DNA of 64,000 nt. It comes from Hellea balneolensis DSM 19091 (GTDB lineage Bacteria > Pseudomonadota > Alphaproteobacteria > Caulobacterales > Maricaulaceae). Positions 47,222 through 63,964 of the stretch are shown in pieces (the stretch's first letter is position 1; every line of letters starts with the position of its first letter). The notes beneath the pieces were generated by a model. The model saw nothing but the letters and a program-made list of their open reading frames with translations, had not been told where the DNA came from and ran no database searches. A program made the position numbers and the translations under genes. The stretch is from assembly GCF_000428525.1 (NCBI RefSeq), contig NZ_AUAC01000002.1, positions 620,001 through 684,000 of the forward strand, in the 5' to 3' direction.

Positions 47222-48538
47222 TTATGACAAATGTGATTTATCAACCTGCTTGGTCTGCCGCAAAAATAAAACTGTTAGGCCCGCGAAAAAGGAACCTGCC
47301 CCCATAATAAGAGCAACGCTTTGCAATGCTAGTCCAGCTGTAAAAAGAAAACCAGGGATCATCGGACCCAGAACAGCGCCACCTCGGCCAATGCCTAGAA
47401 CTAAACCTGCGCCAGAACCCAATAGTGATGATTTGAAGGATGTCGCGAAGAGACCAAAAAAACCGGATATCGCCGCAAAGATTAATATTCCCGTAACAAA
47501 GCCAACCAACTTCATACTCTCAAGCGTTTCCGTGAAAAGCGGAAAACACCATATACCTATCGCTGCCATAAGGAGACTAACGATCATAATAAGTTTTATA
47601 GGAAGAAACCTAGCGGCTATGCTCATACCGATAGAACCGATCACGCCGCCCAGGCTAATTACTCCAAGAACTTTAGTCGCCTCTGACGCTGTATGGCCCA
47701 GATCTGTAACAATTGTCGGCAACCATTTTACGAAGTAATAATAAGTCGCGATATTGGCAAAATAAGCGAAAATAAGAATACATGTAATATTCAACATGCC
47801 TGGTTTAAATAAATGGATTACGTTTACTTTGATCAAGCCTTCAGCAGTTTGGGGAGAAAGGTTTTGCGGTGCTGGATGACCCAATCTTTTCATTGTTTTC
47901 TGTATCCGCTTTAATGTATCTTTAGGGCGCTTACGTTCAAGAAAAGAAATGGTTTCCGGCACAAAAACATAGACGAGCGGAATAAACGCCAAGCTTAGTG
48001 CAGCCCCCAGATAGAACGTTACGCGCCAATCATATTGTTTTAACAATGGTGCTAGGAAAGTAGCGCCTAAGTAGACTCCTAAAGGAAAGCCGCCCGCGAC
48101 TAATACAACGGCGAGAGATCGGTTCTTATCATTACAAAAATCTGATGTTGTTGCTGTCGCCGTCGCAAGCAATCCCCCGATCCCTATACCTGTAAAAACT
48201 CTAGCCGCGCCTAAGATATATACATTGGGTGATATTCCAGCAATCGCCATACCTATTGTCAATATGATCAAACCCAACAACATTGTTGGCCTGCGCCCAT
48301 ATTGATCTGTTAATCCCCCAATAAATATTGACCCTAGTGCCATGCCCACTAATTCAAGTGGCAATATAAACCCTAACGCCGCCTTACTTAAGCCCCACTC
48401 TGCCGTCATTCCAGGCGCGGCAAATGCGATTGATAGGACATCATAACCATCTAAAGCGAGGATACCTATACAGAGAATGACAATGAGCCACTGTCCTCGT
48501 CCCATCGGGGCTTGTTTCAGCCTATCTATGGATGCCAT
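47222..48538 (-). CDS. MFS transporter, aromatic acid:H+ symporter (AAHS) type
   Basis: 438-residue, 12-helix inner-membrane transporter. The first helix carries 'LALDGYDVLSIAFAAPG', the DGYD signature of AAHS members such as PcaK and BenK, and loop 2-3 has 'GGLTDQYGRRPTMLL', the MFS motif A. Members import benzoate-like or other carboxylates with protons. A 20-bp palindromic operator almost identical to that of mauB lies 33 bp upstream, so it is likely induced with the amine pathway. Substrate inferred only by family. Confidence 0.88.
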   Translation of the reverse strand: MASIDRLKQAPMGRGQWLIVILCIGILALDGYDVLSIAFAAPGMTAEWGLSKAALGFILPLELVGMALGSIFIGGLTDQYGRRPTMLLGLIILTIGMAIAGISPNVYILGAARVFTGIGIGGLLATATATTSDFCNDKNRSLAVVLVAGGFPLGVYLGATFLAPLLKQYDWRVTFYLGAALSLAFIPLVYVFVPETISFLERKRPKDTLKRIQKTMKRLGHPAPQNLSPQTAEGLIKVNVIHLFKPGMLNITCILIFAYFANIATYYYFVKWLPTIVTDLGHTASEATKVLGVISLGGVIGSIGMSIAARFLPIKLIMIVSLLMAAIGIWCFPLFTETLESMKLVGFVTGILIFAAISGFFGLFATSFKSSLLGSGAGLVLGIGRGGAVLGPMIPGFLFTAGLALQSVALIMGAGSFFAGLTVLFLRQTKQVDKSHLS

Positions 48539-48570
48539 AGTCTTACCCTGTTTTAGATAATACTAGTAAT

Positions 48571-48590
48571 TTTTATACATTCGTACAAAT
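48571..48590. promoter_or_regulatory. Operator-like palindrome in front of the MFS gene
   Basis: TTTTATACATTCGTACAAAT lies 33 bp upstream of the MFS start. It matches 17 of 20 bases of the palindrome in the mauB promoter (56278-56297). Such spacing and symmetry fit a TetR- or GntR-type repressor site; the TetR gene at 59004 is a candidate partner. Confidence 0.65.
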
Positions 48591-48677
48591 TCTAATTGGT
48601 GAGATACGGCGATTTTTTACGAAGGGATAATGAAGACTATGTTTCTGTAAAGATATATCGATGCATTGCACGGTTTA

Positions 48678-48706
48678 ATAAAAAATGCCCAGACAATGTC
48701 TGGGCA
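48678..48706 (-). terminator. Intrinsic terminator after the acyl-CoA ligase gene
   Basis: TGCCCAGACA/TGTCTGGGCA forms a 10-bp stem (48686-48706) followed on the minus strand by a run of T. It lies about 200 bp after the ligase stop and insulates the MFS unit. Confidence 0.85.
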
Positions 48707-48902
48707 AGTTAATCGTATCCACTCGTACCTAGTGCACACTGATCCCATTTCGTCGGGGAACGAAACGAATTTTTGATTATTAGGACACTTTTTTACGGCG
48801 TATCCTTGTGTAGCTCCATCAAAGTCAACGCTTAATATTTCCTAGAATTTTGTAACCATGACTTAGATAGGGTGGGATGCATCTGAAATCAGAAGACTCT
48901 AA

Positions 48903-50603
48903 TCAACCAAGTTCCTCTATCATCTGATCGCGCATAACAAATTTTTGCATCTTTCCTGTTACAGTCATCGGAAATTCAGTGACAATTTTTACAATCTTTG
49001 GGACTTTGAAATGGGTAATTTGACCCTGACAAAATGTGCGTATGTCTTGAGATGATAAGTTGGAACCAGGACGTAGTTGAACCCAAGCACAGACCTGTTC
49101 CCCATATTTTTCATCCGGTATTCCAAAAACTTGTGCTTCTGCGATTTGAGGATGGGTATAGAGATATTCTTCGACTTCACGTGGATATATATTTTCACCC
49201 CCGCGAATAATCATATCTTTAATACGGCCTGTAACTTTGACGTAGCCATCATGGTCCATTTCACCGAGATCACCGCTGTGAAGAAATCCATCACTATCTA
49301 TAGTCTCGGCCGTACGTTCAGGCTCATTCCAATACCCCGCCATAACGCCATAACCTCGCGAGCAAATTTCTCCCTGCTCTCCTACAGCGGCAACGGTTCC
49401 GTCTTCGCGGAGAATTCTTTGTTCCCAATTATAATGAGCACGGCCAACGGTCGAGACGCGTTGCTCAAAAGTATCATCTATGGCCGTCATTGTATTAATC
49501 GGACTACATTCTGTTTGCCCATATCCAATCACTATTTCTGTTAGCTCCATATCATTTATAAGACGGTTCATTAGCTCAACGGGACATGTGGAACCCGCGA
49601 TTATGCCTGTTCGAAGTGGTCCCACATCAAAGTCTTTGAAATTTGGCAAATCAAGCTGGGCTATGAACATAGTTGGCACGCCGTGCAAGGCCGTGCACTT
49701 TTCCTCAGAAACAACCCTCAGGGTCTGCTCTGCTTCAAAACCCTCGCCAGGAAAAATCATTGTTGCTCCGACGCTGACACATAGAAGGGAACCTAAAACC
49801 ATACCGAAACAATGATACAATGGCACAGGAATACAAAGACGATCATTTGCAGTAAGATTCATCGTCCGAGCTGAGAAATAAGCATTATTTAGAATATTAC
49901 TATGGCTGAGCGTCGCACCTTTAGGCGTACCTGTTGTTCCGCTCGTAAATTGGATATTAATATGATCAACGGGCGAGAGTTTTAAAGACAAAGCTCTGGA
50001 CACATCTTTATCTTCTTGGGTTCCCATATCCAGAACATCATTAAAGTTATACATTCCGTTTGTTATAGCATCGCCCATGCGTATAATAATTTTGAGATGA
50101 GGAAGTTTTTCAGAATTTAGCTTTCCAAGGACAGATGTTTCTAGCTCTGGCGCCAATTCTAAAAGCATGTCTAAGTACATGCTGGTTTTAAAAGACTCTG
50201 CTGTGATAAGCGCTTTGCATCCAACTTTATTCAAAACATATTCAAGTTCGAACAAACGATATGCGGGATTAACACAAACCATTATTGCGCCAATTTTCGC
50301 TGTCGCAAATTGTGTCAAAACCCATTCAACTCGGTTAGGTGACCAGATTCCCACACGGTCCCCTATCCCAATACCCAATCTAACAAGGCCTGCAGCCAAT
50401 CTGTCTACCTGTGCATTAAACTTTTCATAGCTCCAATGAATGTTTTGTTGAGGCATTATGAGAGCTGGATGATTTGGGTTTTGCTTTGTGATCTCTTCAA
50501 GTTTTTGACCAATAGTCATATCAAGAAGTGTTGCTTTTTCGCCAACATAAATTGCTTTTTTATAGACAGAATTTCTTGCCTGAGTCATTTCACGTCCATT
50601 CAC
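48903..50603 (-). CDS. AMP-forming acyl-CoA ligase (fatty-acid/aryl acid type)
   Basis: 566-residue member of the adenylate-forming family that activates a carboxylic acid with ATP and CoA. Motifs: P-loop 'FTSGTTGTPKGATLSH', 'VIGYGQTECSP', 'GDLGEMDHDGYVKVTGRIKDMIIRGGENIYPREVEEYL' and the catalytic Lys region 'TVTGKMQKFVMRD'. All are intact. Overall it resembles medium-chain acyl-CoA synthetases (AcsF2 type). An ATG at 50588 is an alternative start. It follows aldehyde dehydrogenase across a terminator, so the acid from the amine pathway is the likely substrate. Confidence 0.92.
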   Translation of the reverse strand: MNGREMTQARNSVYKKAIYVGEKATLLDMTIGQKLEEITKQNPNHPALIMPQQNIHWSYEKFNAQVDRLAAGLVRLGIGIGDRVGIWSPNRVEWVLTQFATAKIGAIMVCVNPAYRLFELEYVLNKVGCKALITAESFKTSMYLDMLLELAPELETSVLGKLNSEKLPHLKIIIRMGDAITNGMYNFNDVLDMGTQEDKDVSRALSLKLSPVDHINIQFTSGTTGTPKGATLSHSNILNNAYFSARTMNLTANDRLCIPVPLYHCFGMVLGSLLCVSVGATMIFPGEGFEAEQTLRVVSEEKCTALHGVPTMFIAQLDLPNFKDFDVGPLRTGIIAGSTCPVELMNRLINDMELTEIVIGYGQTECSPINTMTAIDDTFEQRVSTVGRAHYNWEQRILREDGTVAAVGEQGEICSRGYGVMAGYWNEPERTAETIDSDGFLHSGDLGEMDHDGYVKVTGRIKDMIIRGGENIYPREVEEYLYTHPQIAEAQVFGIPDEKYGEQVCAWVQLRPGSNLSSQDIRTFCQGQITHFKVPKIVKIVTEFPMTVTGKMQKFVMRDQMIEELG

Positions 50604-50623
50604 ATTATCATTCGAAGGTGCAC

Positions 50624-50667
50624 CAAAAATTCACCCAAGTTGAAAATTCAACTAGGGTGGATTTTTG
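50624..50667 (-). terminator. Strong hairpin terminator between ALDH and ligase genes
   Basis: Outer arms CAAAAATTCACCC (50624-50636) and GGGTGGATTTTTG (50655-50667) and inner arms AGTTGAA/TTCAACT give a stem of about 20 bp with one mismatch, flanked by A and T runs, so it can act on both strands. It would end the mau operon after the aldehyde dehydrogenase gene. Confidence 0.8.
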
Positions 50668-50677: not shown

Positions 50678-52078
50678 TTATTTAGCTATATTAAGCACTT
50701 GAACTTGAGTGTATTCCTCTAGGCCCTCAGCAGACTGCTCCACGCCAATGCCGGAAGATTTGAAACCGGCCATTGGAATGTGCGGGCCAATATTAATGTG
50801 CTGATTAACCCAGACACTACCGCTCTCAATTTGAACAGCTACATCAGCAGCTTTATCCACATCGGACGACCAAACAGAGGCCCCCAAACCATAATCAGAA
50901 TTGTTAGCGCGAGAAACAGCGTCATCTAAATCTGTGTACTTGATTACAGGCAAAACCGGGCCGAACTGTTCAAGATCGACAATATCGTCACCATCTGTGA
51001 CATCCCGAACAATTGTAGGGCGGATGAAGTAACCAGATTTATTCTCTACAACGCCTCCTGATACAATTTTTCCGTCTTTCTTTGCCGACTCTAGCAAATT
51101 TTTTACAAGTTCATATTGAGCTTTGTTTTGAATAGGCCCCATGGTGACCCCTTGTTCCAGCCCATCTCCTACAATTGCCGCATCAGCAATTTTTCCGAGT
51201 TCATCACACATGTCATCATAGATGTCTTCATGCACATAAGCCCGTTTAACAGCCAAACACACCTGACCCGCATTTAGAAAAGCGCCGCCATAAATCTGAG
51301 CGGCAGTTTCAGGTACATTGACATCTGGCATGACGATAGAGGGATCATTTCCGCCAAGTTCTAATGTCACTCGCTTGAGGCTTCCAGAAGAGGAAGACAT
51401 GATTTTCTTACCTGTCGCCGTAGACCCTGTGAAGCTGACCTTAGCGACATCCGGATGTCCAGTAAGTAGCGGGCCGAGGTCATTCTCATCTGTAACAATA
51501 TTAACAACACCAGCAGGAATGAACTCATTGCAAAGCTCAAGAATTTTCAAAATAGTGACTGGCGTTGTCGGTGCTGGTTTCACAACAATTGTATTGCCAG
51601 AAATCAGTGCCGGGCCGATCTTCCAGAATGGCACCAGGACTGGAAAGTTCCAAGGACATATACCAGCTACAACTCCCAGAGGGACGCGGCGCATTTGTAT
51701 CTTAAAGTCATCATCATCTTGGATTGTTCGACCTGATACTGATAGAGTAGCATAATGACGCAAATACCCTTCAGCCCATGCCATTTCGCCCATTGCTTCC
51801 GCTAGGGGTTTCCCCTGTTCTTGGGTCATTAAGCGTGCAAGCATATCGGCATTAGACGCTATAACATCGGCCATTTGATTGACCATGCCTTGCCGTTCGC
51901 TTTCTGGGCGCGCTGCCCATGCTGGGAAGGCGTTTTTTGCAGCTGAAACAGCATTATTTATATCATCTTTAGTACCTTTAGGTACAGCGGCGAAAACCTC
52001 TTCAGTGGCAGGGTTTAAAACATTAATCTTGGAATCACTTCCAACCAGTTCCCCATTTATTAGCATTTTTTGAAACAT
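50678..52078 (-). CDS. NAD(P)-dependent aldehyde dehydrogenase
   Basis: 466-residue enzyme that oxidises an aldehyde to the acid. The motifs 'CPWNFPVLVPFWKIGPALISGNTIVVKPAPTTP', 'FTGSTATGKKIMSSS', the general base in 'VTLELGGNDPSIV' and the nucleophile in 'NAGQVCLAVKRAYV' are all present. It lies downstream of the amine dehydrogenase and cytochrome genes on the same strand, and is therefore expected to oxidise the aldehyde formed from the amine. Confidence 0.94.
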   Translation of the reverse strand: MFQKMLINGELVGSDSKINVLNPATEEVFAAVPKGTKDDINNAVSAAKNAFPAWAARPESERQGMVNQMADVIASNADMLARLMTQEQGKPLAEAMGEMAWAEGYLRHYATLSVSGRTIQDDDDFKIQMRRVPLGVVAGICPWNFPVLVPFWKIGPALISGNTIVVKPAPTTPVTILKILELCNEFIPAGVVNIVTDENDLGPLLTGHPDVAKVSFTGSTATGKKIMSSSSGSLKRVTLELGGNDPSIVMPDVNVPETAAQIYGGAFLNAGQVCLAVKRAYVHEDIYDDMCDELGKIADAAIVGDGLEQGVTMGPIQNKAQYELVKNLLESAKKDGKIVSGGVVENKSGYFIRPTIVRDVTDGDDIVDLEQFGPVLPVIKYTDLDDAVSRANNSDYGLGASVWSSDVDKAADVAVQIESGSVWVNQHINIGPHIPMAGFKSSGIGVEQSAEGLEEYTQVQVLNIAK

Positions 52079-52137: not shown

Positions 52138-52668
52138 TTATTCATGTGTTTTAGACGTTATGGTCATCGCTTTTATAAGGGCAGCCCGCTGCTCTAAAAT
52201 CGTATGGTCCAGAGGTGCTTGACGATACTCCCCTATCTCTTGTGCTGTGATACCTGAAAATTTTGACGGGATATTCAAAGGGTCATATGTCAAAAACATC
52301 CAATTTACTAAATCAGCCAAGTCTTCATCTGAAAGCGGGGAATTTGTTATTCCGTTGACCTGAGATAAATACTTTCGCCCGCCAGGTACTTGTAAAAATC
52401 GAGATACATTTCCGTTCATGTTCGGCATATCCGGCCCTAGACCTACCGCCCCTGATTTATGGCATCCTTGACAATTTAGCATCCAGTTTTGCTTTGCAAG
52501 GCGAGGGTTATTAATACGAAGCTCACCGTAAGATACCTCTGAATTCACTTCTATGAACGACGGATCCTTGGGGTCTGAATTGGCCAAAGCAATAGAGCCA
52601 ATCAACAAAACCAACATAAGGGCAAAGCCAGTTTTGGTCACACCTGACGTAGTTGAACCGACACACAT
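52138..52668 (-). CDS. Periplasmic monohaem c-type cytochrome (2)
   Basis: 176 residues with a hydrophobic signal segment ('GFALMLVLLIGSIALANS') and one haem motif 'NCQGCHKSGAVGLGPDMPNMNG'; a later Met ('LVNWMFL') may be the axial ligand. The start is set by AAGGTGAT just before the ATG at 52668; one base separates it from the preceding gene. It probably carries electrons from the amine dehydrogenase to the respiratory chain. AADH-type clusters are also known to have small cytochrome genes after the light-chain gene. Confidence 0.85.
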   Translation of the reverse strand: MCVGSTTSGVTKTGFALMLVLLIGSIALANSDPKDPSFIEVNSEVSYGELRINNPRLAKQNWMLNCQGCHKSGAVGLGPDMPNMNGNVSRFLQVPGGRKYLSQVNGITNSPLSDEDLADLVNWMFLTYDPLNIPSKFSGITAQEIGEYRQAPLDHTILEQRAALIKAMTITSKTHE

Positions 52669-52669: not shown

Positions 52670-53281
52670 TCACCTTACGCTCTCAAAAGCTGGGTCTCTA
52701 AGTTCCCTGACTTTACGGCCTGATATACGGCCATATTTAGTTTTTGTTGCTGCAACAAATTCTGGTGTATAGAGGCGCTCATCTTCTTTTAGAAAGCCGT
52801 TGAACTCTTCTAGTAAGTAATTTAATAGTGCGCTGGTTTTCTCAGGATTTAACCCCCCTTGAGCCGGCATCACGCCTTTATAGGATTGGCCGTTTACAGT
52901 GAGTTCTCCCGCAACACCATAATTAGCCACAAGCACAAGATATTCTTTACCTAAATCACTATCCATTAATGAGGCAATCTCCCCCTTAAGCGGAGGAAAG
53001 GCGCCCGGAACACCCTCACCTGTCGGCAAATGGCAAGCTGCACAACGCTTATAAAGCTTCGCTCCATCTACCCGAGTGGTATTTCTAGTGACTTTTATAG
53101 GAGCAGTAGACTGTTTCGGCGGAGCGATAACAATAGGTTCGGTCTTTGGCGGTGTTTGCGGTGGGTTAACTTTGTGCGCGCTTTTATCACCACATCCTGC
53201 TAATAAAAGAATGCTAACGCACACTATAAGCACAACCGATGTGGGCCAATCATGTTTACGATGTAAGTACGCATTAACCAT
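52670..53281 (-). CDS. Lipoprotein c-type cytochrome (1)
   Basis: 203 residues. A lipobox (LAGC) after a hydrophobic core shows lipid anchoring; a Pro/Thr-rich linker precedes a class I cytochrome c domain with haem motif 'KRCAACHLPTGEGVPGAFPPLKG' and distal 'GVMPAQGGLNPE' (Met ligand). It overlaps mauA by 8 bases. A membrane-tethered acceptor for electrons from the TTQ amine dehydrogenase is the likely role. Confidence 0.88.
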   Translation of the reverse strand: MVNAYLHRKHDWPTSVVLIVCVSILLLAGCGDKSAHKVNPPQTPPKTEPIVIAPPKQSTAPIKVTRNTTRVDGAKLYKRCAACHLPTGEGVPGAFPPLKGEIASLMDSDLGKEYLVLVANYGVAGELTVNGQSYKGVMPAQGGLNPEKTSALLNYLLEEFNGFLKEDERLYTPEFVAATKTKYGRISGRKVRELRDPAFESVR

Positions 53282-53828
53282 CTAGTGCCACTCCAATGAG
53301 AACAGCTGTAGAGCAATTATAAATCTGGCTTTCTGTTCCAAGGCACCAATTGATGTCATTATTCAACTGTGGGCGGATCATTGGACGATCCCCCTCATTG
53401 CGATTACATAGACAACGCCCACAACTGGAACGGCCACAACAATCATTATAAGAAATAATATAATTCCGGTTATCTGCAGGGTTTTGGCAAGTACCGATCC
53501 ATGTTATTGGCGACATTTCTGTACCTGGCGGACAACTACTCGCCGAGCCTCCACAACACGAACACAAGAATCCATCAATGGCGCAATACCGCCAATAATC
53601 ACAGCTCGTTGGATCACCGGGATCTTGTGGGTTACCCGTAGATTGCGCTCCAACTCCCGGGTATTTTGATGCTGACGCTGGATTGGCGTGAGCCCGATAG
53701 ACGGGCAACAACGGTACAACTGCTGTGCCTACCACAACTGTTCCAATTTTTGTTAAAAAGCCTCTTCTTGAGCTTTTATGCGCAATTTTCCGTGTGGTTT
53801 TCTCTGTTAGTTTATCTAAAAACTTCAT
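53274..53828 (-). CDS. mauA: TTQ amine dehydrogenase light (beta) subunit
   Basis: 184-residue small subunit of methylamine/aromatic amine dehydrogenase. A twin-arginine-type leader ('SSRRGFLTKIGTVVVGTAVVPLLPVYRAHA') is followed by the Cys-rich catalytic chain: 'SCDYWRYCAIDGFLCSCCGGS' contains the first TTQ Trp and 'PITWIGTCQNPADN' the second; about a dozen Cys residues for the six disulfides are present. The two Trp are cross-linked to tryptophan tryptophylquinone. Whether it is closer to MauA or AauA cannot be settled by eye. It lies after mauD and overlaps the cytochrome gene by 8 bases. Confidence 0.93.
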   Translation of the reverse strand: MKFLDKLTEKTTRKIAHKSSRRGFLTKIGTVVVGTAVVPLLPVYRAHANPASASKYPGVGAQSTGNPQDPGDPTSCDYWRYCAIDGFLCSCCGGSASSCPPGTEMSPITWIGTCQNPADNRNYIISYNDCCGRSSCGRCLCNRNEGDRPMIRPQLNNDINWCLGTESQIYNCSTAVLIGVALDG

Positions 53829-53830: not shown

Positions 53831-54454
53831 CTAAGCCTTTTTGTCTTGAGGTTTGCGAGAACCGCGATTTAAATACTCCTGAATAGAAGCCACGCCGTGT
53901 TCTTTAGCCTCGAATAGGCTCTCAATATGCTCACGCGTATTCACCATGCCCATTGACGCCACCAATCCATTCTCGTCTATCAACACGGCATATGGTAGCT
54001 TAGCCACGCTGTAAGCACGCCCTAAGGCTTCTGAGAGAACGTAAGGTGTATCATCCATTTTCTGCGATTTACGAATATCTTGATGGATAGATTCAAGCCC
54101 GCCATCACTAGCTAGAATTCCGTCCACCCAATCACTTTCCCTTGCTAAAGCAGAGCGCAGCGCTGGCATTAGATTTTTACAAATCGGACAATCCGGCGAT
54201 AGAAAGAACAATAAAGTCGACCGACCATTCGTTTCTGTCGATCCAATTTTTATGCTATCCCCATCAATTGTTTGCACAGGAACCATAGGGGCTTTTGACC
54301 CCACCTTTAATGTTTCATTCATAGACAACGCTCCAGCTGGCGCTATGCGCTCATGTAAAACGCCCACTTGCCTTGCGAGTGCAAGGCATAGCGTGCCAAT
54401 GATAATAACGGCGCCCCATAAGAGCACTTGAGATACGATTAGAGCCTCAAACAT
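53831..54454 (-). CDS. mauD: MauD-like thioredoxin-fold protein
   Basis: 207 residues with an N-terminal membrane anchor ('LIVSQVLLWGAVIIIGTLCLALARQVGVLHERIAPAGAL') and a periplasmic thioredoxin-like domain with the redox motif in 'LFFLSPDCPICKNLMPAL' (CPIC). MauD is needed to form the disulfides of, and stabilise, the light subunit. Overlaps mauE by 8 bases and lies 2 bp before mauA. Confidence 0.93.
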   Translation of the reverse strand: MFEALIVSQVLLWGAVIIIGTLCLALARQVGVLHERIAPAGALSMNETLKVGSKAPMVPVQTIDGDSIKIGSTETNGRSTLLFFLSPDCPICKNLMPALRSALARESDWVDGILASDGGLESIHQDIRKSQKMDDTPYVLSEALGRAYSVAKLPYAVLIDENGLVASMGMVNTREHIESLFEAKEHGVASIQEYLNRGSRKPQDKKA

Positions 54455-54986
54455 AACCCGTCGCTTTCATTTTTTGAAAATTTGAATAAAGGGAGATAAC
54501 CGCCAAGAATGACACAGATAAAAAAGCAAGAGCCAAGACTACATTTACCCAATCCAACAGCCCCAAATGACGAGAGCCTGTCGGTATTAGCATCGTCATC
54601 ATAGCTGCCATCAATAGAAGGTTACGATAAATATAAGACTTCATCTTACCACCGCCATCACCAGAGCCCTCACCCCAATGACAACCACAATCGCTCAGCT
54701 CATGACCACGCAAAGTGTTAAATATGAGAAGTAAAGTATATACCGCGAGAAGAGCGACACTACCAAAAAGACCGATGCTTGATTTCAGAGCTAAAGCTGC
54801 AGCTACTGAAATTTCAATTACAGGTACAGCCATAGCCATCAAACCAATCAAGCGCTTTGGAAAAAGCTCATAACCTGTCAAAACCTGTATAAACCATTGA
54901 AAATTATTGAGCTTGTGAAGCCCAGACAAAGCCCAAAAAATAGCGAACCCTAGAGACACTGGCATCAATATGAGCGGATCAATCAT
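54447..54986 (-). CDS. mauE: MauE-like membrane protein
   Basis: 179-residue protein with four or five membrane helices. 'LSGLHKLNNFQWFIQVLTGYELFPKRLIGLMAMAVPVIEISVA' and 'LRGHELSDCGCHWGEGSGDG' match the MauE family, including a CGC Cys pair. It is required with MauD for maturation of the light subunit. Located between mauB and mauD, the same order as in known mau/aau clusters. Confidence 0.92.
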   Translation of the reverse strand: MIDPLILMPVSLGFAIFWALSGLHKLNNFQWFIQVLTGYELFPKRLIGLMAMAVPVIEISVAAALALKSSIGLFGSVALLAVYTLLLIFNTLRGHELSDCGCHWGEGSGDGGGKMKSYIYRNLLLMAAMMTMLIPTGSRHLGLLDWVNVVLALAFLSVSFLAVISLYSNFQKMKATGYV

Positions 54987-56391: not shown

Positions 56392-56421
56392 ATAAAATAT
56401 ACCCCAGACCAAGCCTGGGGT
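56392..56421 (-). terminator. Terminator after the TonB receptor gene
   Basis: On the minus strand ACCCCAG-N7-CTGGGGT (56401-56421) is followed by ATATTTTATTT. It lies 58 bp after the TonB receptor stop and separates it from the mauB promoter. Confidence 0.8.
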
Positions 56422-56478: not shown

Positions 56479-58830
56479 TTAGAAATCGACGTTAAGTGAG
56501 ACATTCCACATCCGTGGACGCCCATAATATTGTTCAATCATCCCGAAAAAACCGCCTGCGTCTAACGTTCCCGACAGATCGAATGTTTGAACAAGATATT
56601 CCTCTCCAAATATATTGCTTACACCTACTGCCAAATCCCATGGCTGCTCTTCTGGAGATAAAGTCACGGAACCATTTACAACAGCGTATCCATCCTCGAT
56701 GGAACTCGCAGCCCCAGATAAGTTGAATACGTGCTCAGAACGATATTCAGCATCCGCTTGAAACGCTACGCTATAATCATTACTTACAGGAACTTCATAC
56801 CGAACAAGTCCGTTCAGGTTCCATTCCGGTGTCTGCACAGGGACAATATCACCCTGGCGGAATGCAGCTGAGATTAAACTTCCATCGGATGCAATTGCAT
56901 CTGTGTTGACACCAGCCACGTCAGAAACGTTTGAATTAATGTACCCAACTCCCAAGAGAACATCCAAACCTTCAGCAGGATTAGCCTGCAATTCCGCCTC
57001 AAAGCCATAATTTTCAGCGTTCGCATTTTGAGTAAATGTGTCAAGTCCAATTATAGAGAAGGCTTGATAGTCTGTGTAATCATAGAAATAAGCCGAGGCA
57101 TTCAACCTGGCCCTTCCGTCGGCAAAAGTTTTCTTAAACCCTGCTTCATAGGCGTTGAGAGTCTCAGGCTCGTATTCATAAAAGCTTGCATCAATAATAC
57201 CAGGTAATAAAGGCGCATTAAAACCGCCCCCACGTACCCCACGGTTATACCCGCCATAAAGCAATAGATCATCATTCACTTGATAATTAAGCACAGCTCT
57301 CAATGACCACATTTCATCAGACCGATCTCCTGTAAATGAAGGTACAAGATCGGGTGCGATTAGCTGAGTACGCGGATCGCGCCCACTTGTTGCATTTTCA
57401 TCAAACAACACGCCATTATTATTATACTGAAAGTCTTTACTCTCACTAATAAAACGTCCGCCCAAAATCAAAGTAAGTTGATCACTAAGATCATAATCAA
57501 CTTGACCAAAAATTGAGAAAGATTCCGTCTCTTGCGTATATGGATTGTCTACACCATTGAAACCGGCATTAGCGACTTCTGCATCCAGATTATCAAAGTC
57601 GACATTACTTGGGTTTTGTCCTGACAACAAATTGACAAAGTTTGCTATGAAGCCCGGCGCTATACCGCCATTTTGATCATCAATATCTATATTAATATAG
57701 TAGCCACCCGCCACCCATTTAAACTTATCAGCACTTCCAGAAAGCCTGATTTCCTGTGAGAACTGCTTAGCGTCTGTTGTAAGAAAAAAATTAAAGAAAT
57801 TAAATGGTGAAGCATCGGAATCCTCAATATAATCTCGGTCTGTTGATTGATAATCGGTGATTGAAGTTAACTCCAAGCTATCACCGAATCTGTAATTACC
57901 TGTTGCCGTAAAACTGTAGGTTTCTAGCTGGTTGCGACCTGGAAAATCATACGAACCCGCGTAAATATCACCATCAAGATCCGTATATCCACCGATAGCT
58001 GGATTAGGTGATGACGGCTGCCCTGCTCCTGTAGGCAGTGGGGCACTGACATATTCAAAGAAACCAGTCCGAATATCTTGAGAACCATAACGAGCCGCCA
58101 ACAATAAATCAAAATCATCAGTTGGCTTAAAACTCAACTGCGCCCGACCCGCCACATCATTTGCATTATTCAGACTTCTGTCTGGACGAAGTCTATTTTC
58201 GACATAGCCATCGCCCTGATGAGTTGCAAATGAAACACGTGCAGCAACTGTATCACTGATAGGGGCGTTTAGCGCGCCTTGAACTTTAATTCGATCGTAG
58301 CTCCCGTATGACGCATTCACGTAGCCCCCAAATTCCTCTTGAGGCTTGACTGAAATATAATGAACTAGCCCGCCCGTTGCATTTCTTCCAAACAGCGTCC
58401 CTTGCGGCCCACGCAAAATCTCTACACGTTCCGTATCAAAAAGTTGAAATCCGCTGCCTGATGATTGACTGATATAAGTTTCATCCACATATAGCGCCAC
58501 TGGGCTCTCAACATTAGTGGTGAAGTCCGAATTAGAAGCTCCACGGATCGCAACGGAATAATTTGACTCTCCATTTGGCTGCACAGTGCTCACACCCGGA
58601 GCTAGAGCGGTAATCTGCTGGGCATTTGTATACCCCAAAGCTTTGATTTGCTTCTCACTCAGCGCCGTAACAGAAATCGCAACATCTTGCACAGATTCTG
58701 CTCTCTTGGTTGCTGTGACGATGATTTCATCCTCAAATACCTGCGCATAAGCAGGGCTAGACAAACCTATCCCTACCAACACGGGTATAACAGCAGCTCC
58801 ATTTAACCAATTTAATTTAGTACGTTCCAC
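56479..58830 (-). CDS. TonB-dependent outer-membrane receptor
   Basis: 783 residues if started at the GTG at 58830, which has AGGGGA at good spacing; the longer frame to 58872 adds 14 residues. Signal peptide ends 'SSPAYA'. The TonB-box/plug region 'EDEIIVTATKRAESVQDVAISVTALSEKQIKALG' and 'RVEILRGPQGTLFGRNATGGLVHYISVKP' is followed by a beta-barrel ending in 'RMWNVSLNVDF' with C-terminal Phe. Placed upstream of the amine dehydrogenase operon and divergent from a TetR gene; it may bring the substrate across the outer membrane. Confidence 0.94.
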   Translation of the reverse strand: MERTKLNWLNGAAVIPVLVGIGLSSPAYAQVFEDEIIVTATKRAESVQDVAISVTALSEKQIKALGYTNAQQITALAPGVSTVQPNGESNYSVAIRGASNSDFTTNVESPVALYVDETYISQSSGSGFQLFDTERVEILRGPQGTLFGRNATGGLVHYISVKPQEEFGGYVNASYGSYDRIKVQGALNAPISDTVAARVSFATHQGDGYVENRLRPDRSLNNANDVAGRAQLSFKPTDDFDLLLAARYGSQDIRTGFFEYVSAPLPTGAGQPSSPNPAIGGYTDLDGDIYAGSYDFPGRNQLETYSFTATGNYRFGDSLELTSITDYQSTDRDYIEDSDASPFNFFNFFLTTDAKQFSQEIRLSGSADKFKWVAGGYYINIDIDDQNGGIAPGFIANFVNLLSGQNPSNVDFDNLDAEVANAGFNGVDNPYTQETESFSIFGQVDYDLSDQLTLILGGRFISESKDFQYNNNGVLFDENATSGRDPRTQLIAPDLVPSFTGDRSDEMWSLRAVLNYQVNDDLLLYGGYNRGVRGGGFNAPLLPGIIDASFYEYEPETLNAYEAGFKKTFADGRARLNASAYFYDYTDYQAFSIIGLDTFTQNANAENYGFEAELQANPAEGLDVLLGVGYINSNVSDVAGVNTDAIASDGSLISAAFRQGDIVPVQTPEWNLNGLVRYEVPVSNDYSVAFQADAEYRSEHVFNLSGAASSIEDGYAVVNGSVTLSPEEQPWDLAVGVSNIFGEEYLVQTFDLSGTLDAGGFFGMIEQYYGRPRMWNVSLNVDF

Positions 58831-58891
58831 GAGAGTCCCCTTTTTGACTTTATATATCATTAACAATACCAATTAGGACATATAACCAAAC

Positions 58892-59003: not shown

Positions 59004-59684
59004 ATGGAAACACATCCTCTATATGGCGAACTGAAAATCACTCGCAAAAAATCGGGCTATTCACGTGGAAAGAATGGTTACGAACATATTTTGTTCGCAA
59101 CTTTAAATATATTGATAGAAGAAGGGTACAACTCTATCAGTTTTCGAAATATTGCAAAAGCTTGCGATATGAATGTTGGAAATGTAAATTATTACTTTTC
59201 ATCGAAACAAGAATTAATCAGACAATTACTCGAAGCGATCATCGGCCATTACGAAGATGAATTTGACAAAAGTCTTGATCAAGATGGTATCGCTGCTGAA
59301 GATCGGCTAAGGGCTTATATCACAATTGTGTTAGAGGATATAAAGACAAAAAAGACAACGCGGTTGTTTCCAGAACTTTGGGTCCTTGCTAACCAAGACT
59401 CTTTTGTAGCGGACAGAGTAGAAGCCCTATATCGTCGCGCTCGTACTTATCTGAATAAAATAATATTAGATCTTAATCCCGACCTCCCTGCAAAAGAACG
59501 CGAAACACTCGCGCTTTTTCTATCTGCATCAATGGAGGGCATGACTACTTTCGCCGGATATAATAAACCGTGGGCCGATCATATGGAATTGATCATCAAT
59601 ATAACAACGAAGTCTTTTCTTGATCTCGTAAAAAACATTACAGTCAATGATATATCGGCTCTCAGCAATTCGAAAAAATCTTGA
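59004..59684 (+). CDS. TetR-family transcriptional regulator
   Basis: 226 residues. The N-terminal helix-turn-helix domain 'HILFATLNILIEEGYNSISFRNIAKACDMNVGNVNYYFSSKQELIRQLLEAII' (about residues 28-80) is typical TetR, and the C-terminal helical domain would bind an inducer. It is divergent from the TonB receptor and central in the catabolic island, so it is the best candidate for regulator of the receptor, mau and transporter units. The start has no strong ribosome site and could lie elsewhere nearby. Confidence 0.9.
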   Translation: METHPLYGELKITRKKSGYSRGKNGYEHILFATLNILIEEGYNSISFRNIAKACDMNVGNVNYYFSSKQELIRQLLEAIIGHYEDEFDKSLDQDGIAAEDRLRAYITIVLEDIKTKKTTRLFPELWVLANQDSFVADRVEALYRRARTYLNKIILDLNPDLPAKERETLALFLSASMEGMTTFAGYNKPWADHMELIINITTKSFLDLVKNITVNDISALSNSKKS

Positions 59685-59710: not shown

Positions 59711-60526
59711 TCACACTCTGATTAAGTGCCCCCCCCCCCAATTTGCTGGGCGCTTTTCTAAGAATGCCGAAACACCTTCCTGTGCATGTTCATTCATCAT
59801 ATTTTCAACCATAACATTTGAGCAATACTCATAGGCCTGAGCTAGAGGCATTTCAGTTTGAGTGTAAAACGCCCCCTTGCCTATTGACAGAACCGCGCTT
59901 GATTTTGACATTATCTTTTTAGCAATTTCTGACGTTGTTAAAGCCAGGTCGTCACTCTCCACAACTCGGTTTAGAAGTCCAATATTTTGTGCATGACCTG
60001 CGCTTATCATATCCCCAGTTAAGAGCATTTCCATGGCGTGCTTATGAGTAACATTTCTAGAGAGAGCGACCATAGGCGTGGAACAAAATAAGCCGATATT
60101 GACTCCGGGTGTTGCAAATCGAGACGTCCTAGAGGCATAGGCCAAATCGCAGCTTGCAATGAGCTGACATCCCGCCGCAGTAGCAACACCATCAATTTGC
60201 GCTATAACGGGCTTAGAGTTTTTAACAATGGCTTGCATAACCGACGCACATAAATTCATAAGCTCTTGAAAAAAAGCTAAACCGCCGTCTTCAGACTTTC
60301 TGGCAATAGTAATTTCTTTTAGATCGTGGCCCGCACTAAACACTGGGCCATTCGCTGTAATTAAAACGACTTTAATAGCTTTGTTGTCATGAGCTCCCTT
60401 TAGCTCAGCAAGCAATTTCTGCAGAAGGGATTTGGAAAGTGCATTTCGACGAGAACTATCATTTAAAGTCAGCCTAAGAATTCCATTTTCCAAGCCAGTA
60501 AGTAGAATATCAGAATTTATTTCCAT
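59711..60526 (-). CDS. Enoyl-CoA hydratase/isomerase family protein
   Basis: 271-residue crotonase-fold enzyme. 'VVLITANGPVFSAGHDLKEI' forms the first oxyanion-hole segment and 'AQIDGVATAAGCQLIASCDLAYAS' the second; 'RFATPGVNIGLFCSTPMVALSR' is typical of the ECHDC3-like group. In that group the usual catalytic Glu pair is not obvious, so hydratase activity is not certain. The last residues 'NWGGGHLIRV' are encoded by an 11-G tract (59729-59739) prone to slippage. Confidence 0.85.
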   Translation of the reverse strand: MEINSDILLTGLENGILRLTLNDSSRRNALSKSLLQKLLAELKGAHDNKAIKVVLITANGPVFSAGHDLKEITIARKSEDGGLAFFQELMNLCASVMQAIVKNSKPVIAQIDGVATAAGCQLIASCDLAYASRTSRFATPGVNIGLFCSTPMVALSRNVTHKHAMEMLLTGDMISAGHAQNIGLLNRVVESDDLALTTSEIAKKIMSKSSAVLSIGKGAFYTQTEMPLAQAYEYCSNVMVENMMNEHAQEGVSAFLEKRPANWGGGHLIRV

Positions 60527-60612
60527 GAATAAATGCCTTATTTTAGGGCCGTATATGAGGTATATTTTCTATCTGCGAAATATAACTATGAAATGTTAGG
60601 CTTTGACCACCT

Positions 60613-61437
60613 CTAAATACGAGACTCATCTTGTCTAAATTGCAAAACTCTACGAGCTTTTTTTACAACGGGCTCTTCAATAAATTTACCATCTAGTAAA
60701 ACAACATTTCCATGTGATGCCTCAAAAGCTTCAATCACGCGTTTGGCATAACTAATTTCAGTATCAGATGATTCCAAAGCTCTATGAATAGAGTCTATTT
60801 GAGCTGGATGAATAGCGCTTCTAGCAAGGATGCCTACAGACTTGGCCTTGCGTGTAGAGGCTTCGCAGTCCTCTAAATTATGCACGTCGATATGTGGGGT
60901 ATCAAAAAGCAAGACATCATGAGCATTGGCACTAGCGACAAGCTTGGACCGACCATATAAATGTGTACTCCACTGCAAATCACAATTAACATCACTGGCA
61001 TAGTCAACAGCGCCGTACATGCCGAGCTTCACGCGGGCATGACTGAAAATATCGCTGCAATTCACCAACCCTTTTGCACTTTCAATAATCGCAAAAAACG
61101 GTCCTGATACAGCGGGTATTTTGTTATCCAAATCAACAATGTCCTGCAGTGAGCCCACCTTAGGAACCATTACGAAAGGAAGGTTTAGATTGGCCTCTGA
61201 CAGGGCCGTTATATCTTTTTGGCCGGTTTCAGTATCAACAGGATTAATACGCAAGCTCACATGCGTGTGTTGTGTCTCCTTCAACCATGAGAAGACGTCA
61301 TTGCGTGCACTGTCCTTAGCAGCAGGCCCGACTGCATCCTCCAGATCGATACAAACCAGATCGGCCCCTGCATTGCAGGCTTTTTCAAATCTATCGGAAC
61401 GATTGCCCGGAACAAAAAGCTGGCTGCGATAATACAC
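60613..61437 (-). CDS. HpcH/HpaI aldolase / citrate lyase beta-like protein (CitE-like)
   Basis: 274 residues. 'YYRSQLFVPGNRSDRFEKACNAGADLVCIDLEDAVGPAAKDSAR' is the conserved CitE start (Arg and acidic metal site), followed by 'LRINPVDTETGQKDITAL', 'FFAIIESAKGLVNCSDI' and 'GMYGAVDYASDVN'. Relatives cleave malyl-, citramalyl- or similar 3-hydroxyacyl-CoA esters. It shares one base with the thiolase gene, so it is in the same operon. Substrate unknown. Confidence 0.88.
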   Translation of the reverse strand: MYYRSQLFVPGNRSDRFEKACNAGADLVCIDLEDAVGPAAKDSARNDVFSWLKETQHTHVSLRINPVDTETGQKDITALSEANLNLPFVMVPKVGSLQDIVDLDNKIPAVSGPFFAIIESAKGLVNCSDIFSHARVKLGMYGAVDYASDVNCDLQWSTHLYGRSKLVASANAHDVLLFDTPHIDVHNLEDCEASTRKAKSVGILARSAIHPAQIDSIHRALESSDTEISYAKRVIEAFEASHGNVVLLDGKFIEEPVVKKARRVLQFRQDESRI

Positions 61438-62615
61438 TAAATGCGCCTAAGGCAAACCGCCGTCGCTTCGCCGCCGCCAATGCAAAGACTCGCAACGCCT
61501 GTTTTGGCATCGCGTTTTTCCATCATTGCGATGAGGGTTGTCATAATCCGAGCTCCTGAGGCCCCGATAGGATGACCAAGTACACAGCCGCCACCATTGA
61601 CGTTAACTTTTTCATGATTGAGTCCAAGTTCTTGCATTGCAATCATAGGGACTACGGCAAAGGCTTCATTAATTTCCCAAAGGTCGACATCAGCAGCCTC
61701 CCAATTAGCTTTCTTGAGCGCCTTTTTCATTGCATGCACAGGGGCCGTAGTGAAATAGGCCGGCGCATGAGCGTGGGCTGCGTGCGAGACGATTTCGGCG
61801 AGAATTTTATGCCCTCCCTTTTGAGCTTCTGATTTCCGCATCAAAACAAGCGCCGCCGCGCCGTCATTAATGGAGGATGCATTCGCCGCTGTAACAGTCC
61901 CGTCCTTGGTAAAGACAGCCCGCAGGCTTGGAATTTTTTCGGGGCGCGCATTTCTAGGGCCCTCATCCTCGCTCACAACGGTATCCCCTTTACGGCCTTT
62001 AACGGTAACAGGCGTAAGCTCGCGGTCAAAGTCACCGCTCTCTTGTGCGGCTTTGGCACGGCGTACGGATTCTATGGCATAGGCGTCCTGTTGCTCGCGT
62101 GTAAATTGATATTCTTTTGCAATCATATCAGCAAAGACACCCATAGCGTCCCCCTCATAGGCATCCGTCAAGCCATCATACATCATGCTATCAATCATCT
62201 TAGCATCCCCCATGCGCGCTCCGGCCCTTGCGCTTGGCATCAGATACGGCGCGCGGGTCATATTCTCCATCCCGCCCGCAACTGCTACATCAATAGAACC
62301 CGCCTTAATCGCATCGTGCGCCATAATAACTGCCTGCATACCACTGCCGCACATCTTATTGACGGTTGTGGCTTCGGCATGCTCACCAAGCCCCGCATAG
62401 ATAGCGGCTTGACGCGCAGGCGCCTGCCCCTGGCCTGCCGGCAAAACACAGCCCATTATGGTTTGCTCAACTTTATCGGCAGACATGCCTGCCTCATCCA
62501 TGGCGGCCTTAATAGCCACCGCGCCAAGTTTCGGGGCTGACACGGTTGAAAACGCTCCTTGAAAAGCGCCCATGGGTGTGCGGGCCATACCTACTATGAC
62601 GACTGGATCAGACAT
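61437..62615 (-). CDS. Acetyl-CoA C-acetyltransferase (thiolase)
   Basis: 392-residue thiolase. The nucleophile lies in 'VNKMCGSGMQAVIMAHD', the His in 'NVNGGCVLGHPIGASGAR' and the second Cys in 'GVASLCIGGGEATAVC'. It joins or splits acetoacetyl-CoA or 3-ketoacyl-CoA. Together with the two CoA transferase subunits it forms a ketone-body/3-oxoacid degradation set; it lies 9 bp after scoB. Confidence 0.95.
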   Translation of the reverse strand: MSDPVVIVGMARTPMGAFQGAFSTVSAPKLGAVAIKAAMDEAGMSADKVEQTIMGCVLPAGQGQAPARQAAIYAGLGEHAEATTVNKMCGSGMQAVIMAHDAIKAGSIDVAVAGGMENMTRAPYLMPSARAGARMGDAKMIDSMMYDGLTDAYEGDAMGVFADMIAKEYQFTREQQDAYAIESVRRAKAAQESGDFDRELTPVTVKGRKGDTVVSEDEGPRNARPEKIPSLRAVFTKDGTVTAANASSINDGAAALVLMRKSEAQKGGHKILAEIVSHAAHAHAPAYFTTAPVHAMKKALKKANWEAADVDLWEINEAFAVVPMIAMQELGLNHEKVNVNGGGCVLGHPIGASGARIMTTLIAMMEKRDAKTGVASLCIGGGEATAVCLRRI

Positions 62616-62624
62616 TATATACCC

Positions 62625-63263
62625 CTATTCAAAAACAATATCGGCTTCGGTTTTAGACTTAACTTCATCAACGATCACATCCGGCGCAAGCTCTCGTAAT
62701 CGAAAGCGCTTTTGACCATGCCCGCGATCAAACACGCCTAAATCTGTAATGACCATGTGGATGCAGTTTTTACCTGTCAGCGGCAAAGTACATTCTTTGA
62801 GAAACTTACTCTCACCTCGTTTATTAGTATGGTCAAACAAAGCGATACAGCGCTTCACCCCTGCGACCAAATCCATAGCGCCACCCATGCCTTTGACCAT
62901 CTTACCCGGTATCATCCAATTGGCGATGTCCCCATTTTCAGCCACTTCCATCGCGCCCAAAATCGACAAGTCTATATGCCCGCCGCGTATCATCGCAAAG
63001 CTGGTCGCGCTGTCAAAAAAGCTTGATTTAGGCAAAGTTGTAATCGTCTGCTTACCCGCATTAATAAGGTCAGCATCCTCTTCACCCGCATACGGAAAAG
63101 GCCCCATGCCGAGCATACCATTTTCGCTCTGCAAAGTGACATCCATCCCGTCCGGAATATGGTTTGCGACCAAAGTCGGAATCCCAATGCCGAGATTAAC
63201 ATAAAACCCGTCTTCAAGCTCCTGCGCCGCACGGGCAGCCATTTCATCGCGTGTCCAAGCCAT
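62625..63263 (-). CDS. scoB: 3-oxoacid CoA-transferase subunit B
   Basis: 212 residues. 'MAARAAQELEDGFYVNLGIGIPTLVANHIP' and the catalytic Glu in 'LQSENGMLGMGPFP' define subunit B of succinyl-CoA:3-ketoacid CoA transferase. 'GGHIDLSILGAMEV' and 'PGKMVKGMGGAMDLV' are also typical. It shares one base with scoA. Confidence 0.95.
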   Translation of the reverse strand: MAWTRDEMAARAAQELEDGFYVNLGIGIPTLVANHIPDGMDVTLQSENGMLGMGPFPYAGEEDADLINAGKQTITTLPKSSFFDSATSFAMIRGGHIDLSILGAMEVAENGDIANWMIPGKMVKGMGGAMDLVAGVKRCIALFDHTNKRGESKFLKECTLPLTGKNCIHMVITDLGVFDRGHGQKRFRLRELAPDVIVDEVKSKTEADIVFE

Positions 63264-63964
63264 TATGTGCTCCTCTCGCGTGTCGTCAGCTGTTCAATAC
63301 GTTTCTCACATTCAGCTTCGATAATCCGCTGTACGAAAATACCGGGCGTGTGAATAAAGTTGGGATAAAGCGTGCCGACGGGGACAATCTCGTCCACTTC
63401 GGCCACCGTCACCTTACCAGCCATCGCCATCATGGGGGAGAAGTTTCGTGCGGTGGCTTTGAAAGTCAGGTTTCCTTCCGCATCTCCCTTCCAAGCTTTA
63501 ATAATGGAAAGATCTGCCTTTAGCCCTGTTTCCATGATATAAGCTTCACCCTCAAAGTCTTTATGTTCTTTGCCTTGCGCGATAAGCGTGCCGACACCTG
63601 TTTTGGTATAAAACCCCGGAATACCTGCCCCGCCTGCGCGGATTCGTTCAGCGAGAGTGCCTTGCGGATTGAATTCAAGCTCTAACTCTCCGCCCAGATA
63701 TTGGCGCTCAAATTCTTTATTCTCGCCAACATAAGAACTGACCATTTTTTTAATCTGCCGCGTTTCCAAAAGCTGCCCAAGGCCAAAACCGTCAACGCCC
63801 GCATTGTTGGAAATCACCGTGAGGTCTTTTGCGCCGCTATCGCGCAAGGCCACAATCAAGTTCTCTGCTATACCGCAAAGACCAAATCCGCCACTCATCA
63901 CCGTCATGCCATTTAGGGTTAAGCCCTCTAAAGCAGTACTAGCCGTTTTATAAATTTTACTCAC
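63263..63964 (-). CDS. scoA: 3-oxoacid CoA-transferase subunit A
   Basis: 233 residues. 'TVMSGGFGLCGIAENLIVALRDSGAKDLTVISNNAGVDGFGLGQLL' and 'GELELEFNPQGTLAERIRAGGAGIPGFYTKTGVGT' are the signatures of subunit A. The pair transfers CoA between succinyl-CoA and acetoacetate or a related 3-oxoacid such as 3-oxoadipate. First gene of the minus-strand scoA-scoB-thiolase-citE-like group visible here; a promoter would lie at the window edge. Confidence 0.95.
   Translation of the reverse strand: MSKIYKTASTALEGLTLNGMTVMSGGFGLCGIAENLIVALRDSGAKDLTVISNNAGVDGFGLGQLLETRQIKKMVSSYVGENKEFERQYLGGELELEFNPQGTLAERIRAGGAGIPGFYTKTGVGTLIAQGKEHKDFEGEAYIMETGLKADLSIIKAWKGDAEGNLTFKATARNFSPMMAMAGKVTVAEVDEIVPVGTLYPNFIHTPGIFVQRIIEAECEKRIEQLTTRERST

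Follow-up and report, generated by a model that had tools for sequence, protein, structure and literature searches.

The stretch of DNA considered here (the window) comprises 64,000 nucleotides of Hellea balneolensis DSM 19091 (contig NZ_AUAC01000002.1, positions 620,001 to 684,000, forward strand), and from position 47,222 onwards it is occupied by a catabolic island gathered around the genes of an amine dehydrogenase of the tryptophan tryptophylquinone (TTQ) type. Genes were identified by Pfam and NCBIfam profile searches, and the contig was also read past the window edge (as locus L019; the genome itself is G000, with C1, C4 and C9 among its contigs). Every gene named here by a first-pass annotation was recovered (Table 1): mauBEDA, two cytochromes c, an aldehyde dehydrogenase (ALDH), an acyl-coenzyme A (CoA) ligase, an AAHS-type transporter of the major facilitator superfamily (MFS), a TonB-dependent receptor, a TetR regulator, a crotonase, a CitE-like lyase, a thiolase and a CoA transferase. 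That annotation was right about the genes up to 63,964 and wrong in ending the island there, as it runs on to an integrase (C1 ~683,965–695,263). Behind TetR2, the second TetR gene, which the window edge cuts, MccB and MccA of 3-methylcrotonyl-CoA carboxylase (MCC), an isovaleryl-CoA dehydrogenase (IVD) and a MaoC/RipB-like hydratase form one tight operon.

The spacing of the genes suggests an operon mauBEDA-cytB-cytA-ALDH-ligase, transcribed from mauB, as well as the operons TetR2-scoA-scoB-thiolase-CitE-enoyl-CoA hydratase and MccB-MccA-IVD-MaoC. Terminator-like hairpins stand in the gap between the TonB gene and mauB (56421–56401) and behind the ligase (48706–48686), in a scan that returned 26 hairpins in the region against 15.7 expected; a promoter scan was uninformative (34 observed, 32.8 expected by shuffling). 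The MFS gene lies behind the second of these hairpins, and no gene matching it at an identity of at least 40% stands next to any of 80 related TTQ loci (those ranked highest among at least 571, taken with up to 10 kb on each side, 48 of them having 8 kb on both), so that the AAHS transporter, which had been counted as part of the system, is probably not a member of it.

The products of mauA and mauB are a predicted TTQ amine dehydrogenase that resembles aromatic amine dehydrogenase (AADH), and in the tree described below they lie both outside methylamine dehydrogenase (MADH) and outside the characterised AADH. The tryptophan pair of TTQ and the two aspartates of the active site are invariant among the 102 light chains compared, that of the window included, and a threonine of AADH and MADH is a serine in 100 of the 102. 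MauB scores 129 bits to AADH, its best solved match, versus 83 to MADH, while Cys92 and Cys136 of MauA align with cysteines of AADH that are serines in MADH (3c75). The position of the substrate-pocket phenylalanine, which we take to be Phe55 in MADH and Phe97 in AADH, is a glutamine in MauB. The NCBIfam MADH equivalogs were all missed, by MauB at 105 bits (cut-off 454), MauA at 194.8 (196.9) and MauD at 186.6 (188.6). Both MauB and cytB start like lipoproteins; the same simple pattern is seen in only 9 of 93 relatives of MauB, and the trait is therefore not general.

A tree of MauB plus MauA (108 taxa, rooted on two MADH, supports given as splits) places the window with G024 (0.998) and L042 (1.0) inside a clade of 65 taxa (0.995). 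The 108 pairs comprise 105 distinct MauB sequences; left out were L016 (below the cut-off, with stops inside), L054, L073 and L097 (contigs without MauB) and L113 (unpaired, MauA truncated). The 98-taxon group that contains the window is split at 0.943 from the group of the AADH of Alcaligenes faecalis and of a Pseudomonas aeruginosa plasmid, the A. faecalis enzyme grouping with L172 and L023 at 0.997 and the window standing outside; MADH branches further out than the AADH group, and the window does not join it. This phylogeny, proposed as a check by the first-pass annotation, bears out its view that we are not dealing with a classical methylamine dehydrogenase.

With the AADH of A. faecalis (PDB 2agl/2ah1) the window thus shares the tryptophan pair, both aspartates and the two cysteines that MADH 3c75 lacks, as well as the gene order BEDA and the lack of a nearby mauG, two traits also seen in the plasmid cluster annotated in P. 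aeruginosa; it departs from it in forming a separate tree group, in the serine and the pocket glutamine, and in being joined to a leucine module and to genes for an ALDH, an acyl-CoA ligase and a TonB receptor. With the mau cluster of Paracoccus denitrificans (L171) it shares the mauB-E-D-A core; in contrast to that cluster, the window has no mauF, mauG, mauJ, amicyanin or NapG-like (mauM-type) match, and its MauB is far below the family cut-off. No match to mauG, mauF, mauJ or amicyanin was obtained by tblastn in the window and the following 31 kb; among 102 other loci, these genes occur at L171 and L176 only, and L029 has all except amicyanin (this set of loci holds near-copies, such as L022 = L045, and L001–L018 are short duplicates of later loci).

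The second half of the island is concerned with acyl-CoA chemistry, and part of it lies past the end of the window. The acyl-CoA dehydrogenase, found there in a search that the first-pass annotation had recommended, scores 604 bits to bacterial IVD and 499 to human IVD, versus 296 for the next class, and has the Glu254-type motif LDYERVV and GAG, with no glutamate, at the Glu376 site, which agrees with what we assume to be the rule for IVD (glutamate at position 254, none at 376). The carboxyltransferase MccB scores 749, 748 and 729 bits to human MCC-beta, Mycobacterium tuberculosis AccD1 and P. aeruginosa MCC-beta, and 477 to geranyl-CoA carboxylase (GCC), with most propionyl-CoA carboxylases at 277 and below; its top rows are 9tps (775 bits; depositor label propionyl-CoA carboxylase beta) and 9yx0 (754; carboxyl transferase domain protein). 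The CitE-like protein reaches 204 bits with the RipC equivalog NF038242 (cut-off 375), and 142 bits with 3qll versus 89 with 6aq4, which we take to be RipC and Rv2498c, respectively, the latter presumably belonging to the M. tuberculosis gene order Rv2498c-Rv2504c. No canonical 3-hydroxy-3-methylglutaryl-CoA (HMG-CoA) lyase was recognised in the genome; of its two proteins with PF00682, one has a length of 524 aa and the other is identified as 4-hydroxy-2-oxovalerate aldolase (574.6 bits, cut-off 286).

According to PMC4673880, MCC is recognised by the equivalent of Phe191 and a preceding three-residue insertion, the phenylalanine blocking geranyl-CoA; by alignment, the island MccB has both, and a geranyl or citronellyl route was rejected on this residue and on the carboxylase scores. 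PMC6689899 describes the cleavage of (R)-HMG-CoA by Rv2498c and employs PA0883 of P. aeruginosa as a lyase specific for the (R) form. The module of the island resembles the (R)-HMG-CoA leucine route of M. tuberculosis in combining a CitE-type lyase with IVD, MCC, MaoC and CoA-transferase genes, and it differs in its linkage to amine oxidation and in a CitE that is nearer to RipC-type proteins than to Rv2498c. The citramalyl-CoA lyase of itaconate breakdown (RipC/PA0883) belongs to the same sequence family; in contrast, the CitE of the window falls below the RipC cut-off, lies among leucine-type genes and stands beside a 3-oxoacid-type CoA transferase, and an itaconate route is disfavoured.

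If these findings are put together, the island can be read as a self-contained route for isoamylamine (3-methylbutan-1-amine, the volatile product of leucine decarboxylation), carried as cargo by an integrative conjugative element (ICE) in a tRNA-Phe gene, and to this reading, made from sequence, we would give a probability of roughly 0.55. We infer the substrate from gene context: IVD and MCC point to a branched C5 amine and, since the pathway attached in the window would be that of isovaleryl-CoA, the amine would be isoamylamine. In this proposed route (i) the TonB receptor would aid the uptake of the amine into the periplasm; (ii) an exported, possibly lipid-anchored MauA/MauB would oxidise it to isovaleraldehyde and ammonia, passing the electrons to cytochromes c; (iii) the ALDH would convert isovaleraldehyde into isovalerate and the ACSF2-type ligase would convert this into isovaleryl-CoA; (iv) IVD, the biotin-dependent MCC, a MaoC-type (R)-hydratase and a CitE-type (R)-HMG-CoA lyase would yield acetoacetate and acetyl-CoA; (v) and finally, the CoA transferase and the thiolase would complete the conversion to acetyl-CoA. 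Maturation of TTQ would rely on MauD and MauE, aided by a MauG-like diheme protein from another part of the genome unless it proceeds without MauG. The first-pass annotation had proposed a longer-chain or aromatic amine converted to acyl-CoA: the gene families agree that acyl-CoA is made and used downstream, while the aromatic half of the proposal is disfavoured, as the cargo showed no recognisable genes of the paa, homogentisate or ring-cleavage kind beyond those for a PcaC-like protein and for a thioesterase that matches PaaD weakly (31 of 118.9 bits). Its observation was therefore sound though understated, and its interpretation is sharpened, with partial support, to an isoamylamine island.

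The island is cargo of an ICE of ~56 kb in tRNA-Phe, which extends ~11 kb beyond the window end. The 18-bp attL has an exact copy, attR, at C1:695421-695438, ~160 bp from the integrase. The interval between the two repeats holds genes for ParB, ArdA and ArdC as well as those for conjugation (TrbI, a VirB4-like ATPase, a coupling protein and a relaxase); integrase, att repeats, relaxase, type IV coupling protein (T4CP) and the ATPase of a type IV secretion system are all present. Homologues of the integrase in G010 (69%) and G005 (60%) have a 15-bp att core at a similar distance, which ties the integrase to the tRNA-Phe att site; the sequence retrieved on either side of these homologues gave no match to the conjugation genes. 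An empty site was not found among relatives: tRNA-Phe is intact in five congeners, where the right flank was unmatched. The TTQ light chain occurs in 4 of the 99 genomes of the relatives set, this genome included, and in 0 of 9 congeners, a patchiness that is expected of mobile cargo.

The leucine module, in turn, appears from its place in the trees to be a second copy of outside origin. A further Thl-ScoB-ScoA-TetR2 / MccB-MccA-IVD-MaoC set exists in the same genome (L149, C1:898.6-907.2 kb), 60-91% identical to that of the island, and the arrangement, whole or partial as fetched, was found in G017, G008, G005, G004, G009 and G024. The island copy joins G024 and G017 in the left-half tree (0.998), and joins G017 in the all-genes and right-half trees (1.000 in both), with G024 added at 0.971 and 0.819, respectively; because it groups with these and not with the other copy of its own genome, the island module is foreign. 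Linkage to the TTQ genes recurs in G024, of a second genus, where the TTQ operon, TetR, a thioesterase and the leucine module adjoin at a contig end (identity to the window: MauA 80%, TonB 88%, ALDH 81%, ligase 77%). No close MCC copy was found in G024 apart from the MccB pieces at this place, which cover residues 3-220 and 221-531 and lie on two contig ends; its CitE is on a separate contig.

Several observations weigh against the isoamylamine route. CitE, thiolase and MaoC are found in 0 of the 80 related loci, and MCC plus IVD-type genes in only two (L086, L087); most TTQ clusters of the clade of the window are without a leucine module. G+C is 0.41-0.45 in the TTQ half and 0.50-0.52 in the thiolase/CoA-transferase part, and each half has its own TetR; because of this step and the separate regulators, the two halves may have been joined late or may be regulated apart. 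The single system assumed by the first-pass annotation is thus partly countered, on sequence features, by apparent separate regulation (two TetR genes, the hairpin between TonB and mauB, the G+C step). Neither the ALDH nor the ligase belongs to a substrate-specific family, no equivalog cut-off being reached among the rows shown; in the all-genes and right-half trees the island copy is nearest to that of G017, which has no TTQ light chain; and the two linkages, in G000 and G024, may represent one historical event. No link between TTQ and isoamylamine appeared in the literature listings searched, which were mostly without subscription papers.

One alternative is that the operon of MauBEDA, cytochromes, ALDH and ligase serves other or a broad range of amines, aromatic or alkyl, the leucine module being independent cargo that shares the element. 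It would be consistent with the separate regulators and the G+C step, with a TTQ-cytochrome-ALDH-ligase set that is often without a leucine module (ligase at 50% identity or more in 38 of the 80 loci, MCC/IVD in 2), and with TTQ clusters that adjoin Rieske and catechol genes (pNL2), a CoA ester lyase (Cupriavidus) or Rieske and thiolase-like genes (G020). However, the linkage recurs in a second genus with the only close MCC copy of G024, the TTQ genes are accompanied by a foreign leucine module in a host that has another one, and L086 and L087 place MCC- and IVD-like genes directly behind mauBA; we hold this explanation to be possible, although unlikely. A much more doubtful explanation is that the substrate is an isoprenoid amine of five carbons, such as prenylamine (3-methylbut-2-enylamine), or a longer, acyclic amine of terpenoid type, which would enter at 3-methylcrotonyl-CoA and not at isovaleryl-CoA. 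The carboxylase would accept the 3-methylcrotonyl group, and the clusters of L086 and L087, which contain a TTQ pair, carry, with a P450, an MCC-lineage enzyme with alanine in place of phenylalanine; against it, the island retains a true IVD, and the MCC phenylalanine that blocks geranyl-CoA (PMC4673880) is present. Finally, a methylamine dehydrogenase system of the classical kind whose neighbouring genes have degenerated, for which only the Pfam/NCBIfam names of MauA, MauD and MauE speak, is scarcely credible, being contradicted by the tree, by the lack of mauF, mauG, mauJ and amicyanin, by the score of MauB and that of MauA, just under its cut-off, and by the two extra cysteines common to AADH and not MADH.

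In L086 and L087, which join the 65-taxon clade weakly (0.437), the dehydrogenase of L086 is best matched by IVD (351 bits versus 263 for the next class), and the carboxyltransferase of L087 scores 589 to 9tps, 560 to MCC and 421 to GCC. The alanine at the MCC specificity residue of both is a further point against the isoamylamine reading of the window; because it replaces the phenylalanine, their substrate may be larger.

Table 1. Features of the amine island and of the element that carries it (window positions unless a contig is named).
Feature	Position	Strand	Remarks
AAHS-type MFS transporter	47222..48538	-	doubtful member; not found beside related TTQ genes
ACSF2-type acyl-CoA ligase, proposed isovalerate-CoA ligase	48903..50603	-	PF00501; NF009233 806 bits (cut-off 832); 77% in L021
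Aldehyde dehydrogenase, proposed isovaleraldehyde dehydrogenase	50678..52078	-	PF00171; 81% in L021
cytA, monoheme cytochrome c without conserved distal Met	52138..52668	-	matched beside most TTQ loci
cytB, monoheme cytochrome c, lipobox-like start	52670..53281	-	
MauA, predicted TTQ light chain (W110, W161; D85, D129; Ser173 versus Thr in AADH/MADH)	53274..53828	-	
MauD, accessory thioredoxin-like protein	53831..54454	-	TIGR02661 186.6 bits (cut-off 188.6)
MauE, accessory membrane protein	54447..54986	-	PF07291
MauB, predicted TTQ heavy chain, lipobox-like N terminus, Gln replacing the MADH/AADH pocket Phe	54993..56201	-	
Terminator-like hairpin between TonB gene and mauB	56401..56421	-	
TonB-dependent receptor	56479..58872	-	88% identical in G024
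TetR regulator between the two halves	59004..59684	+	58% in G024
Enoyl-CoA hydratase (crotonase)	59711..60526	-	PRK08139 equivalog, above cut-off
CitE/RipC-like lyase, proposed (R)-HMG-CoA lyase	60613..61437	-	family profile and PMC6689899
Acetoacetyl-CoA thiolase	61437..62615	-	
3-Oxoacid (acetoacetate) CoA-transferase subunit B	62625..63263	-	TIGR02428, above cut-off
3-Oxoacid CoA-transferase subunit A	63263..63964	-	TIGR02429, above cut-off
TetR2 end	63965..64000	-	gene continues past window
TetR2 remainder, MccB, MccA, isovaleryl-CoA dehydrogenase, MaoC hydratase	C1:683965-689749		past window
attL	19305..19322	+	18-bp CAGGTTCGGGCACCATTT at 3' end of tRNA-Phe (19244-19319)
Conjugation genes	20337..37339	-	Pfam
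TrbI	20337-21563	-	Pfam
VirB4/TrbE-like ATPase	25414-27870	-	Pfam
T4CP/TraG	29961-32006	-	Pfam
Relaxase with DUF3363	35426-37339	-	Pfam
ParB-like, ArdA, ArdC block	42098..46609	-	Pfam
ParB-like	42098-43852	-	Pfam
ArdA	45045-45560	-	Pfam
ArdC	45557-46609	-	Pfam

The element has other contents as well. A Y-family DNA polymerase (ImpB/MucB/SamB; Pfam) lies at 32311-33630 of the window, and beyond MaoC (L019:9953-13687, C1:689.9-693.7 kb) an RraA/HMG-aldolase-like gene, a second TonB receptor, the PcaC-like gene and a PaaI-like thioesterase, which are a third small cargo block, precede the integrase. Just beyond attR (L019:15524-16948), a protein with DUF3363 (relaxase-type) and DUF6538 domains is perhaps what is left of a different element that used this tRNA. 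With regard to the lyase, a second CitE of this genome (64%) is found at C9:38229-39035 beside a gcrA-like gene, and among 60 further genomes from the relatives set, 12 have a CitE at an identity of at least 60%, so that leucine breakdown through a CitE-type lyase may be widespread in the family.

As for the wider occurrence of the TTQ genes, the 80 related loci contain MauD in 73, cytA in 74, the TonB receptor in 62, TetR in 60, ALDH (at least 40% identity) in 46, and the CoA transferase in one (L064). On plasmid pNL2 of N. aromaticivorans (L173, 469-486 kb) a TTQ cluster and a TonB receptor lie between Rieske dioxygenase/amidase and catechol/beta-ketoadipate genes, perhaps an amine-to-aromatic route on a plasmid; on p1 of Cupriavidus pinatubonensis (L174) genes for two cytochromes, an ALDH and a CoA ester lyase come after the cluster, and in G020 it lies beside Rieske and thiolase-like genes. 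In the paired clusters of L066, L071, L081, L089 and L119 (also L047), a mauBA without its own mauED or cytochrome precedes or faces a fuller mauB-D-A-cyt set, an arrangement which suggests that the two might share maturation genes. Our reading is that a TTQ front end has been joined to differing acyl-CoA pathways, in the window to that of isovaleryl-CoA.

There remains the maturation of the cofactor. That mauG is missing from the cluster, as the first-pass annotation observed, agrees with the tblastn result given above; with MauG of P. denitrificans and Methylobacterium as queries, mauG lies beside 3 of the 102 TTQ loci, all with MADH-type companions. A search of the whole genome (family profile, PF03150) found one MauG-family gene, on contig C4 (G000:C4:185139-185588; L144, L215), for a 500-aa diheme protein of the cytochrome c peroxidase/MauG type with a lipoprotein-like start and an N-terminal extension. 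The MauG-like proteins of G000, G024 and G020 are alike (60-67% to G000) and have a tyrosine and a tryptophan aligned with Tyr294 and Trp93 of MauG, and no Trp199, likewise missing in Methylobacterium MauG in this alignment; we take Tyr294 to be the axial ligand, and Trp93 and Trp199 to have roles in MauG as well. Since homologues with 56-74% identity are found in TTQ-negative G009 and G027, this protein has another role as well or instead. Within the family, PF03150 is present in 3/3 TTQ-positive versus 4/25 TTQ-negative genomes tested (one-sided Fisher ~0.011, ignoring relatedness). Seven of 14 other TTQ-positive genomes, tested whole, have no PF03150 match, including one- and two-contig assemblies (G107, G240), and their loci (L023, L024, L026/L027, L030, L034-L036) are in no case (0/7) in the 65-taxon clade; the members of that clade tested (this genome, G024, G020 and G404) each have one PF03150 gene, away from the cluster, which speaks against a MauG-free reading for the clade. 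The role of MauG in MADH is treated in PMC7876137 and PMC7699789.

The most constant extra gene is cytA, matched in 92 of the 102 loci (cross-matches between cytA and cytB being possible) and in 0 of the 3 of MADH type. One CxxCH is present in 78 of 78 relatives, and in the alignment (n=79) the haem cysteine and histidine and an Arg/Asn are invariant, no distal Met, His or Lys being conserved (Met84, 14 residues from the haem histidine, 53/79; Tyr140, 66/79; Tyr62, 61/79). Its AlphaFold model (mean pLDDT 85.8) gave in a Foldseek search only weak matches to class I cytochromes (best E 0.0099). As a hypothesis, the open haem of cytA could serve maturation. A broader conjecture, which we consider distinctly improbable, is that much of the AADH-like TTQ is made without MauG, with cytA as a maturase instead of, or besides, an electron acceptor, and that such front ends are joined to interchangeable acyl-CoA pathways, here that of isoamylamine on a mobile element.

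If the isoamylamine route is true, it would provide a physiological substrate and a full pathway for part of a large and unassigned branch of TTQ dehydrogenases, show that a conjugative element can carry a pathway for an amine, and point to a leucine route through (R)-HMG-CoA and a CitE-type lyase in an alphaproteobacterial family. Moreover, as genomes with AADH-like TTQ genes and without a MauG-family gene stand next to a clade with one, the formation of TTQ without a mauG in the cluster becomes directly testable.

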